Source: Gemmatimonadales bacterium (GTDB lineage Bacteria > Gemmatimonadota > Gemmatimonadetes > Gemmatimonadales > GWC2-71-9). From it: a stretch of DNA of 64,000 nucleotides. The notes under the pieces were generated by a model. That model did no database searches. It saw only the letters and a list, made by a program, of their open reading frames with translations, and had not been told where the DNA came from. Where the stretch lies: assembly GCA_036279355.1 (NCBI GenBank), contig DASUJH010000024.1, forward strand, positions 131,375-195,374. Reading direction: 5' to 3'. Of the stretch, positions 1-8,575 are shown one piece after another. The position numbers were made by a program, and so were the translations under genes. Position 1 is the stretch's first letter; every line of letters begins with the position of its first letter.

Positions 1-99
1 CGTGATTGGAAGGTTGCGCCGCCGGAGCATTCCGACGGCCCGGTTGAGCGTCACCAGCTCCTGGTCGGCCAGCACCGAGAGCGTCTGCGCCGGCATCAT
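1..99 (-). CDS. ilvN: Acetolactate synthase small (regulatory) subunit, N-terminal fragment
   Basis: Only the first 33 codons are inside the window; the gene runs off its left edge. The visible peptide begins MMPAQTLSVLADQELVTLNR and continues with the hydrophobic pattern of the first strand and helix of an ACT domain. IlvN proteins bind valine there and regulate the catalytic subunit in the first step of valine, leucine and isoleucine synthesis. The ATG at 97-99 overlaps the ilvB stop TGA at 96-98 in an ATGA arrangement, so translation is probably coupled. Identity rests mainly on position directly after ilvB and on the N-terminal pattern. Confidence 0.82.
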   Translation of the reverse strand, partial: MMPAQTLSVLADQELVTLNRAVGMLRRRNLPIT

Positions 100-1847
100 G
101 CGGAGACGAGCGGCGGTTCCGCGGCCGGCGTGGGCGCCGGCTCGGCTTCGATCGGCTCCGAGAGGGACGCTCCCGGCGGAATCATCGGGAAAACGTTTGC
201 CTCCTGCTCGATCAGGAACTCGACTACCGTAGGTCCGTCGTGCCGCATGGCGCGGCCGAGCGCCTCCTCCGTGCAGGACGCATCCTCCACCCGCCAGCCC
301 GCAATGCCGTATGCCTCGGCCAGCTTCACGTAGTCGGGGCTCCAGATCGGCGTCGCGGAGTAGCGGCGCCCATGGAAGAACTGCTGCCACTGCCGCACCA
401 TGCCGAGATAGCCGTTGTTGAAGATCGCCATCTTCACCGGGATCTTCTCCTGCACCATCGTCGCCATCTCCTGCATGTTCATCTGAAATCCACCGTCGCC
501 CGAAATCGCCCACACCGGCTCACCGGGCCGCGCGCAGTGGACGCCCATCGCCGCCGGGACCGCGAAGCCCATCGTGCCGAGCCCGCCCGACGTGATGTGC
601 GAATTGGGCTGCTGGTAGGGAAAGAGCTTGGCCACCCACATCTGATGCTGCCCCACGTCGGATACGACGGTACAGCGGCCGGCGGTGACGTCATCGAGCG
701 TGCGGAGGATCGACTCGGGTGAGAGATCGCCCCGATACTGCTCCCTGCGGTTGGTCGCGAAGCCCGCGATCTCGGCGTGCCATGCGTCGCATGCGCGCGG
801 GCGCACCGCATCCACCAGCTGCGCCAGCACCTCGCGGGCATCGCCCACGATGCCGAGCGTCACCGGGACATTCTTCCCGATCTCCGCCGGATCCAGATCG
901 ATGTGCACGATCTTGGCACGGGGCGCGAACTGCGCCGTGTTGCCGGTGACCCGGTCATCGAACCGGAGGCCCACGCCGATGAGCAGGTCGGCGTGCTGGA
1001 TGGCGCGGTTCACGTGAACCTCGCCGTGCATCCCCGGCATGCCAAGGTGCAGCGGGTGCGCCTCGGGGAAGCCGCTGATGCCGAGGAGCGTGGTGATGAC
1101 CGGGATGCCGGTGAGCTCGGCGAGCCGCCGCAGCTCGGCGTACGCGCCGCTCAGCAGAATGCCGTGGCCCGCCAGGATGAGGGGCCTCCTCGCCTCGGCG
1201 ATGAGCCATGCCGCATGGCGCAGCCCGGCCTCACGCGGCTGGTCGAGCCACCGCGCGGGCGTCGGCTTGGCGCCGCTCCGGCCGGGGCGCGCGTCAGAGC
1301 GGGGGCATCCCGAATACATCGCCTTCTGGCTCTGTACGTCCTTCGGCACGTCAACGAGCACCGGCCCCGGGCGCCCCTCGCGCGCCACCGCGAACGCCTC
1401 GCGCACGGTGTCCGCCAACTCGGAGACATCGCCCACCAGGGCGCTGTGCTTGGTGATCGGCTGGGTGATTCCGATGATGTCGGTTTCCTGAAATGCGTCG
1501 CGGCCGATCATGGCGCGGGGTACCTGGCCCGTGAGCGCGACAACCGGCGAGTTGTCCATATGCGCAGTCGCAAGCCCGGTCACGAGGTTCGTCGCGCCCG
1601 GGCCCGATGTGGCGACGCACACGCCGGGGCGGCCGCTCGCGCGCGCGTAGCCGTCGGCGGCGTGCGCGGCCGCCTGCTCGTGCCGCACCAGCACGTGCCG
1701 GAGACCGGGGAACTCGGGCAGCGCATGGTAGAACGGCATGATGGCGCCGCCCGGATAGCCGAAGAGCAACTCCACGCCCTCCTCCTCGAGCACCCGGCAG
1801 AGGATCTGCGCACCGGTGAGCGGTGCGCCCGTATTCGGCTCACCCAT
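96..1847 (-). CDS. ilvB: Acetolactate synthase large (catalytic) subunit
   Basis: Thiamine-diphosphate enzyme that condenses two pyruvates to acetolactate, or pyruvate with 2-oxobutyrate, in branched-chain amino acid synthesis. The N-terminal ThDP-binding block FGYPGGAIMPFYHAL with its catalytic glutamate region (RHEQAAAHAADGYARASG) is present. So are the FAD-proximal segment GRDAFQETDIIGITQPITKH and the C-terminal ThDP/Mg motif GDGGFQMNMQE. About 583 residues, normal for the family. I prefer the ATG at 1845-1847, which overlaps the leuA stop (TGATG). An ATG 12 bases upstream would lengthen the overlap. It forms one operon with leuA and ilvN. Confidence 0.96.
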   Translation of the reverse strand: MGEPNTGAPLTGAQILCRVLEEEGVELLFGYPGGAIMPFYHALPEFPGLRHVLVRHEQAAAHAADGYARASGRPGVCVATSGPGATNLVTGLATAHMDNSPVVALTGQVPRAMIGRDAFQETDIIGITQPITKHSALVGDVSELADTVREAFAVAREGRPGPVLVDVPKDVQSQKAMYSGCPRSDARPGRSGAKPTPARWLDQPREAGLRHAAWLIAEARRPLILAGHGILLSGAYAELRRLAELTGIPVITTLLGISGFPEAHPLHLGMPGMHGEVHVNRAIQHADLLIGVGLRFDDRVTGNTAQFAPRAKIVHIDLDPAEIGKNVPVTLGIVGDAREVLAQLVDAVRPRACDAWHAEIAGFATNRREQYRGDLSPESILRTLDDVTAGRCTVVSDVGQHQMWVAKLFPYQQPNSHITSGGLGTMGFAVPAAMGVHCARPGEPVWAISGDGGFQMNMQEMATMVQEKIPVKMAIFNNGYLGMVRQWQQFFHGRRYSATPIWSPDYVKLAEAYGIAGWRVEDASCTEEALGRAMRHDGPTVVEFLIEQEANVFPMIPPGASLSEPIEAEPAPTPAAEPPLVSA

Positions 1848-3409
1848 CACACGCCCCACAAGTAGGAGGAATTGAGCGCCGTCGCCTCGAGCCGGTCCGC
1901 GTGGCGCGCCTTGTTGAGGGCATGGATGAGCGCGCGCGCACTCGCCTCGACCACGTCGGTCGACGCCCCCTGGCCGCTCAACGACTTGCCGTCCACCCGC
2001 GCCTGCAGGAAGACCTGCCCCACGCTATCGCGCCCCGGGGTCACCGAGCGGAGCTGCAGGCTGATCACCTCCACCGGGCGCTCGAGGATTTCGCTGATCG
2101 CGGTGAAGGCCGCGGCGATCGGGCCGTCGCCCGTGCCGGTGGACGCGCGCTCCCCCGCCCATGGGCCGGTGAGCCGCACCTCGGCGCTCGCCGGAACGCT
2201 GCCGCACACGACCCGGAGATGCACCAACTGGTACTCTTCCGGCGCGTCGTGAAACGATTCGTGGAGCAACGCGAGGAGATCCTCGTCCAGGATTTCGCGC
2301 TTCCGGTCGGCCAGCGCGGTGAATTGCGCGTAGATGTCGTTGAGCTTGGCGTCGCCGAGATCGTACCCCAGCTCGCGGTAGCGCTGCTCCAATGCGTGCC
2401 GGCCCGAGTGCTTGCCAAGAATGAGCGTGCACTTGGGAATGCCGACCATCTCCGGCCGGATGATCTCGTAGGTCTGTCCATTGCGCAGCATCCCGTGCTG
2501 GTGGATGCCGGACTCGTGCGCAAAGGCGTTCCGGCCCACCACGGCCTTGTTCGGCTGGGGGAAGACGCCGGTGAGGTACGAGAGGAGCTGGCTCGTCCGA
2601 TAGATCTCCTGCGTCACGATGTTGGTGCGGAAGCCGAGCTGCGGGCGAATCAGCCCGGCGATCACGATCTCCTCGAGCGCCGCGTTGCCGGCCCGCTCGC
2701 CGATGCCGTTGATGGTGCACTCGACCTGGCCGCACCCCGCCTGGATTGCGGCGATGGAGTTGGCGACGGCGAGGCCCAGGTCGTCGTGGCAGTGCGCGCT
2801 GAAGGTGACGCGGTCAGCGCCCGGCGCCCGCTCCCGCACCGAGCGGAACATGGCGCCGTATTCGGCCGGCGTGGCATAGCCCACGGTATCGGGCAGGTTG
2901 ATCGTCGTGGCGCCCTCGGCGATGGCCAACTCGACCACACGGCACAGGAAGTCTGGATCGGTGCGGCTCGCGTCCTCGGCGGAGAACTCCACGTCGTCGG
3001 TGTACCGGAGCGCGCGCCGGACGCCCGCGCGCACCATCGCGAGCGCCTCGTCGCGGCTCACCCTGAGCTTTTCCCGCAGGTGCAGGTCGGAGGTGGAGAG
3101 AAAGACGTGCAGCCGGGCCCGCTCAGCGCCGTGGAGCGCGTCGCCGGCGAGGTCGATGTCCCGCTCGGTGCACCGAGCCAGCGCCGCGAGCACCGGGCGC
3201 CGGACCTCCGCCACGATGTCGCGCACGCTGCGGAAGTCGCCCTCCGAGGCCGCCGGGAAGCCGGTCTCGATCACGTCCACGCCAAGGGCGTCGAGCTGGC
3301 GCGCGAGCCGGAGCTTCTCCTCCGGCGCGAGACTGTTGCCCGGCGCCTGCTCCCCGTCCCGCAAGGTCGTGTCGAAGATGATCACGTCTTTCACCATGTG
3401 CGGCTCCAT
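1847..3409 (-). CDS. leuA: 2-isopropylmalate synthase
   Basis: Catalyses condensation of acetyl-CoA with 2-oxoisovalerate, the first committed step of leucine synthesis. The TIM-barrel signature [17 protein letters not shown] is near the N-terminus, metal-binding histidines lie in the [16 protein letters not shown] segment, and GINQHG-like [11 protein letters not shown] lies in the subdomain region. The C-terminal part is the LeuA regulatory domain that senses leucine. About 520 residues, close to the long (E. coli-like) form. Two ATGs fit: 3407-3409 has GGAG eight bases upstream, and 3395-3397 has GGAG six bases upstream. First structural gene of the operon, preceded by an attenuator-like leader. 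Confidence 0.96.
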
Positions 3410-3681: not shown

Positions 3682-3709
3682 TTGACGCGATCCCGGCCTT
3701 GCATAAGAT
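3682..3709 (+). promoter_or_regulatory. Promoter of gltB, divergent from the leuA promoter
   Basis: TTGACG (3682-3687), 16-base spacer, TAAGAT (3704-3709). The predicted start near 3716 gives a leader of about 185 bases before gltB. Its -35 box is 17 bases from the -35 box of the opposite-facing leuA promoter, so a single regulator bound between them could affect both. Confidence 0.55.
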
Positions 3710-3718
3710 TGCGTGCAT

Positions 3719-3796
3719 ATGATTGCGCCGCTCGCCCGAATTCCGGTCGTCAAGCTTACGCTCGCCCGCATTGCGGGGGCGGCCGGGTCGCGATAG
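3719..3796 (+). CDS. Putative leader peptide upstream of gltB
   Basis: A 25-codon frame, MIAPLARIPVVKLTLARIAG then AAGSR, begins two or three bases after the predicted transcription start. It would therefore be translated from an almost leaderless message. It is rich in Ile, Val, Leu and Arg and has no Glu or Gln codon. Its TAG (3794-3796) lies in the loop of a stem (3781-3820) that excludes a downstream intrinsic terminator. Position relative to the stems, rather than composition, is the main support. It could be a chance frame. Confidence 0.4.
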   Translation: MIAPLARIPVVKLTLARIAGAAGSR

Positions 3797-3845
3797 CGCG
3801 CGTACGCGAACCACCCGGCCCGCTCCCGATCGAGCGGGCCTTTTT
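3781..3845 (+). promoter_or_regulatory. Transcription attenuator in the gltB leader (antiterminator/terminator pair)
   Basis: Terminator: GGCCCGCTC (3817-3825), six-base loop, GAGCGGGCC (3832-3840), then TTTTT. Antiterminator: GGCCGGGT (3781-3788) pairs perfectly with ACCCGGCC (3813-3820). The two stems share bases 3817-3820 and cannot form together. The terminator lies after the predicted promoter and before gltB with no gene between. Its likely role is to decide whether RNA polymerase enters gltB. Confidence 0.7.

Positions 3846-3901: not shown

Positions 3902-8575
<4,674 letters not shown>

Follow-up and report, generated by a model that had tools for sequence, protein, structure and literature searches.

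A candidate ribosome-mediated attenuator with non-cognate control codons before the glutamate synthase gene gltB of Gemmatimonadales

The window, i.e., the whole 64,000-nucleotide stretch analysed here, belongs to a Gemmatimonadales genome of 3.25 Mb. On its minus strand, leuA and ilvB (3397-96) stand back to back with gltB, which is read from the plus strand. The plus strand of the leuA-gltB gap holds a single promoter, a 25-codon open reading frame (ORF), and then a terminator located about 57 nt 5' of gltB (Table 1). As leuA faces away, no upstream gene of the plus strand needs this terminator, which can act only on transcripts initiated within the gap. The window's kin ("group I") retain the divergent leuA/gltB order, with ilvB behind leuA wherever the flank is long enough. 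Directly 3' of gltB, four relatives carry cimA (citramalate synthase, isoleucine synthesis), and in another group of relatives gltB is followed by aguB, accompanied in at least some of them by aguA (polyamines from arginine). As far as gene order can tell, this neighbourhood is consistent with a branched-chain link of gltB.

The minus strand of the same gap harbors, at 3584-3489, a Leu/Val-rich short ORF (VIGNLALLVLGILLLGLIRERRVRGVPVETA, then a stop) before leuA, whose counterpart in one relative (L051) is MPLNLILVVVLLGLLLAVLTGEREVRGVPIR, also closed by a stop. The end of this ORF can pair with GGCGCCGCGGACC (3460-3431, minus strand), itself a strong hairpin former. Together, ORF and hairpin probably make up another attenuator, a cognate one serving leuA-ilvB, although the hairpin has no T run behind it.

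Table 1. Coordinates of the genes, the leader ORF and the putative regulatory elements around the leuA-gltB gap.
Feature	Position	Strand	Basis
ilvB, behind leuA	96-1859	-	
leuA, 2-isopropylmalate synthase, divergent from gltB	1847-3397	-	order kept in group I
Sigma-70-type promoter, TTGACG-16 nt-TAAGAT	3682-3709	+	sequence; counterpart in group I
Tandem near-repeat 14-mer TGCATAAGATTGCG / TGCATATGATTGCG over the -10 and the leader start; possible operator (low confidence)	3701-3728	+	
Leader ORF MIAPLARIPVVKLTLARIAGAAGSR (then stop), 25 codons, probably translated from a leaderless transcript	3719-3796	+	sequence; relatives
Strand 1, pairs with strand 2 if the ribosome is absent	~3742-3769 (limits approximate)	+	folding
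Predicted control codons Val-Val-Lys-Leu-Thr-Leu (codons 10-15)	3746-3763	+	folding simulation; Ile/Leu/Val-rich zone of 28 leaders
Strand 2 GGGGGCGGCCGGGT, last codons of the ORF, antiterminator left arm	3775-3788	+	conservation; pairing
Strand 3 ACCCGGCCCGCTCCC, antiterminator right arm and terminator left arm	3813-3827	+	conservation; pairing
Strand 4 GAGCGGGCC plus T run, forming the intrinsic terminator together with 3817-3825	3832-3845	+	pairing
gltB, glutamate synthase large subunit, predicted regulated gene	3902-8575	+	NF008730, 1656 bits

The terminator is a perfect 9-pair stem between GGCCCGCTC (3817-3825) and GAGCGGGCC (3832-3840), closed by a 6-nt loop and followed by TTTTT. A second stem competes with it, since GGCCGGGT (3781-3788) and 3813-3820 are exact reverse complements of each other, and the stop codon of the leader ORF (TAG, 3794-3796) lies inside the loop of this competing stem. 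A preliminary description of the locus had reported the two stems, their mutual exclusion, the position of the TAG, and a 25-codon ORF devoid of Glu and Gln codons, and all of its coordinates and pairings are correct. The 8-pair stem, however, is only part of the antiterminator, whose two arms extend over 3775-3788 (the last ORF codons, GGGAGCGaCCGGG) and 3813-3827 (CCCGGcCCGCTCCC, serving also as the terminator left arm). Strand 1, overlooked in that description, can sequester the antiterminator left arm, and the classical 1:2, 2:3, and 3:4 set is thereby complete.

By itself, the terminator is at chance level, since 12 kb hold three terminator-like sites where shuffled sequences would give 3.5, so that the case for more than chance is carried by conservation. 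The attenuator geometry proposed for gltB in the preliminary description recurs in the family: the architecture precedes gltB in 39 of the 102 genomes sampled, gltB itself being found in 44, with one strong model match per genome. Enlarging the leader set yielded few new leaders. Within the window genome, the covariance model gives the window site 66 bits and the runner-up 18.7. In relatives, the block runs from an ORF ending in GGGAGCGaCCGGG and its stop, through CCCGGcCCGCTCCC, to GGAGCGGGCC, which is set off from CCCGGcCCGCTCCC by a short loop and followed by a T run. When 33 leaders were aligned without guidance, 95% of the terminator cells and 89% of the antiterminator cells were paired, versus at most 62% in slid-arm controls. 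Covariation of the stems, put forward as a test in the preliminary description and passed only weakly, is slight because their positions are mostly invariant: the outer terminator pair has changed on both sides in 7 sequences, and the remaining positions are nearly fixed. In these alignments, covariation is weak evidence in either direction, and the support lies in conserved complementarity, frame, and spacing. A similar block of ORF end, antiterminator, and terminator occurs in a record labelled Acidobacteriota (L054), with a gltB about 60% identical, which suggests either a transfer or a mis-binned contig.

The leader ORF measures 22-28 codons in the family, with one exception of 36. Its stop is mostly located at a fixed offset from the start of strand 2 (12, 13, or 18 nt; 19 nt in the window). 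Codon statistics were obtained from 28 representative leaders, amounting to 517 codons upstream of strand 2. The composition of the reading frame there differs strongly from that of the two remaining frames: Asn stands at 10.3% versus 0.7%, Val at 7.7% versus 2.0%, and Lys at 3.7% versus 0.1%. Frame-specific composition, length, and the near-fixed stop make the ORF look real, and its codon pattern indicates that it is under selection as a reading frame.

Within the first 12 kb of the window, no promoter-like site occurs other than the TTGACG-16-TAAGAT element. The group I counterparts of this element read TTGACn-16..18-AATAAT/TATTTT or similar, and the distance from the -10 to the leader ATG is 5-9 nt in 10/10 cases (9 nt in the window). 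Such a short distance suggests that, in the window's kin, the leader message is probably leaderless, with the start codon at the transcript start. The leaders of other Gemmatimonadales ("group II") possess a 5' UTR and a Shine-Dalgarno-like sequence.

Many relatives carry one or two TGnATwwwwATnCA-like boxes at the gltB promoter. Exact TGMATAWWHATRC boxes number nine in three relatives (G026, G061, and G082; L252-L261), where each genome has them at gltB, argG, and argC and nowhere else, a distribution that would make gltB a member of a small ArgR regulon in these three. In the window genome, the sole exact TGMATAWWHATRC box precedes argG, and the gltB promoter carries a degenerate form only; the tandem 14-mer may be, with low confidence, a decayed ArgR-box-like operator of the type seen in relatives. 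ArgR itself is found in 54 of 61 genomes. Together with the boxes, its presence suggests that arginine probably acts in relatives via ArgR at the gltB promoter, rather than through the leader codons. Arg codons, proposed in the preliminary description as part of the input along with Ile, Val, and Leu, are depleted in the leaders (0.67 of background) and were rejected in this role.

The three other amino acids of that proposal are concentrated where a stalled ribosome would release the antiterminator. At codons -10 to -7, counted back from strand 2, Ile, Leu, and Val make up 57 of 112 codons (51%), versus 83 of 405 (20%) elsewhere in the leaders and 22% in genes. Fisher's test gives P = 8e-10 and shuffles give 28 +/- 4 (maximum 42) for the 57 observed, values that are optimistic since the zone was spotted before testing and the leaders are related. 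At least one such codon is present in this zone in 28/28 leaders, and at least two in 23. Glu, the amino acid formed by the gltB product, is encoded by 0/517 leader codons, while about 33 are expected from the gene background and 9 from base-composition shuffles (minimum 2 in 500), and Gln by 4/517. The window leader has no Asn codon, and its zone adds a Lys and a Thr to Val and Leu.

The composition of the zone also bears on a broader reading, in which the attenuator is real and responds to a general amino acid shortage or to slow, rare T-ending codons, Asn, Thr, and Lys being equal to Leu, Ile, and Val. Over the gene background, Asn is the most enriched amino acid of the leaders (4.8-fold), Thr and Lys reach 2-fold each, and the rare codons AAT, ATT, and CTT are used far above genome usage. 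Within the zone, Asn accounts for 15% and Ile, Leu, Val, Asn, Thr, and Lys together for 78%; no amino acid prevails in the way that His or Cys prevails in other Gemmatimonadota attenuators. From the Asn enrichment in relatives, and the lesser one of Thr and Lys, the input may exceed the branched-chain amino acids. In group I, however, the zone is 55-60% Ile/Leu/Val with Asn at 3%, and many Asn codons of the family occupy the second position of the ORF and may there contribute to initiation. A read-out of glutamine by Asn codons, via transamidation of Asp-tRNA(Asn), was rejected because an Asn-tRNA synthetase is called above its curated cut-off in 53 of 61 family genomes, including the window genome. 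The broader signal has less than an even chance of being right, and Leu, Ile, and Val as the main input in the window are the somewhat likelier assignment.

The behaviour of the leader under translation was simulated in the 28 leaders by masking a ribosome footprint at each codon and folding the remainder. With the ribosome at the stop codon, the terminator forms in 28/28 leaders. With the transcript extended to strand 3, a ribosome stalled anywhere between about 15 and 4 codons ahead of strand 2 yields the antiterminator in 89-96% of leaders; stalls from 2 codons before strand 2 onward never or almost never produce it. Equilibrium folding of the full-length leader yields a weaker result, the antiterminator peaking at a little over half of the leaders, for a stall 10 codons before strand 2, so that the model leans on co-transcriptional folding. 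For the window leader free of ribosomes, 12.2 pairs are predicted for 1:2 against 0.6 for 2:3. Ribosome-free folding gives this 1:2 hairpin for the window leader and for about half of the set, 2:3 being favoured in the rest.

A ribosome-mediated transcription attenuator with non-cognate control codons probably governs gltB (probability about 0.8). RNA polymerase would start at about 3716-3719, and the 25-codon leader would be translated at once. When charged Leu, Ile, and Val tRNAs (in relatives, also those of Asn, Thr, and Lys) are ample, the ribosome would reach the TAG and cover strand 2; strand 3 would then pair with strand 4 and transcription would end at about 3845. When they are scarce, the ribosome would stall at Val-Val-Lys-Leu-Thr-Leu, covering strand 1 and leaving strand 2 free to pair with strand 3, and gltB would be transcribed in the absence of a terminator. 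If no ribosome is present, the 1:2 hairpin would permit the terminator. The locus possesses a terminator between promoter and gene, an antiterminator sharing an arm with it, a stop codon that would place the ribosome on strand 2, and appropriately placed candidate control codons, and the ribosome-masking folds agree with the recurring geometry. That gltB is subject to a translation-controlled attenuator of some kind is very probable. As glutamate is the amino donor for Leu, Ile, and Val, and for Asn, Thr, and Lys, their shortage can be a proxy of glutamate demand. At the level of the family, there is about an even chance that tRNA charging of the amino acids depending on glutamate nitrogen (Leu, Ile, and Val first, then Asn, Thr, and Lys), and not glutamate, sets glutamate synthase expression, the leader being a gauge of amino-donor demand beside ArgR repression by arginine.

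Three further explanations differ from the proposed attenuator in the nature of the element itself. In nascent-peptide arrest, the peptide, and not the tRNA supply, would stall the ribosome; a short recurring core ([VAK][AIV][ILV]L[NTK](P)) and the Pro following the stall zone in group II are compatible with it. The peptide is variable, however, its Pro/Ala/Cys part is accounted for by RNA strand 1 (CCGGCnnnTCCC), and the synonymous choice of rare codons suggests selection on codons, making arrest improbable. A constitutive intrinsic terminator lowering gltB expression, with an incidental ORF and competing stem, would fit the chance-level frequency of terminator-like sites in the window, but the conservation of strand 2, frame, near-fixed stop, and codon bias in dozens of genomes leaves it little room. 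A metabolite- or tRNA-binding RNA (riboswitch or T-box) with a coincidental ORF is very improbable: glutamine riboswitches and a gltD riboswitch candidate do precede glutamate synthase genes elsewhere (PMC8632094), but no Rfam family reaches its gathering score anywhere in the window, and conservation upstream of strand 2 is coding-type and frame-specific, with no conserved aptamer.

Other RNA leaders are found in the phylum. Weaker matches of the covariance model (20-42 bits) were considered as copies of the gltB-type leader and rejected, most of them being other attenuators with cognate codons, or chance matches. Sequence inspection points to cognate attenuators in Gemmatimonadota with Cys codons before cysI, cysC, and cysG, His codons before hisG, Leu codons before leuA, and Thr codons before thrS, as well as Met/Cys codons before an O-acetylhomoserine sulfhydrylase gene (metY-type). 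Among these cognate attenuators (L219, L222, L224, L228, L229, L236, and L237), several look leaderless. A HAD-IB family phosphatase gene (L218, L221, L231, and L233) is preceded by a terminator and by another conserved leader ORF, the core of which is CAC(N/K) (e.g., MICACNHNSLHTG). The gltB leaders of other families of the phylum (L145-L176) have different terminators. Eight loci (L145, L146, L147, L150, L164, L172, L174, and L175) present a short ORF and mostly a terminator before gltB, of unrelated sequence, and are possibly independent attenuators. Almost no regulatory biology is available for Gemmatimonadota, in which cognate attenuators of his, cys, leu, met, and thrS genes appear common.

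The gltB leader shares with the attenuators of ilvGMEDA, ilvBN, leu, thr, trp, and his in Proteobacteria, and of ilvB in Actinobacteria, an ORF of about 14-36 codons, strands 1-4, exclusive 2:3 and 3:4 pairing, and a stop codon placed such that the terminating ribosome covers strand 2. Branched-chain control codons are likewise those of the ilv leaders, with LVVI in mycobacterial ilvB1 (PMC13236596). Attenuators have been defined as having control codons that match the product of the pathway under control, and mixed control codons are expected in theory to lower sensitivity by dilution (PMC1183508). The gltB leader departs from this definition, as its control codons do not encode the gltB product and Glu is absent; in those relatives with cimA after gltB, Ile would be partly cognate. 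A likeness in the mode of initiation is offered by the cysteine operons of mycobacteria, described as having leaderless short-ORF attenuators (Canestrari 2020, as cited in PMC13236596), similar to the start at the ATG proposed for the window's kin. In contrast to these, the gltB leader has an intrinsic terminator, four-strand folding, and other amino acids. A leader ORF that is probably leaderless would couple translation to transcription from the first codon.

In E. coli, gltBDF control is described as involving proteins only (Lrp, IHF, Crp, and ArgR), and Lrp is leucine-insensitive there (PMC1784095). Repression of glutamate synthase through ArgR in that operon parallels the ArgR-type boxes that the window's relatives carry at gltB, argG, and argC. 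The gltD (SRC-18-1) riboswitch candidate and the glutamine riboswitches are also RNA elements before glutamate synthase genes, but have no leader-ORF logic. A literature search of partial coverage found no earlier report of a glutamate synthase attenuator. The locus lends itself directly to a test of whether nitrogen assimilation is under cross-pathway control through translation speed: unlike product-sensing attenuators, the leader proposed here would wire gltB, whose enzyme supplies most amino acids with nitrogen, to amino acids other than its own product.
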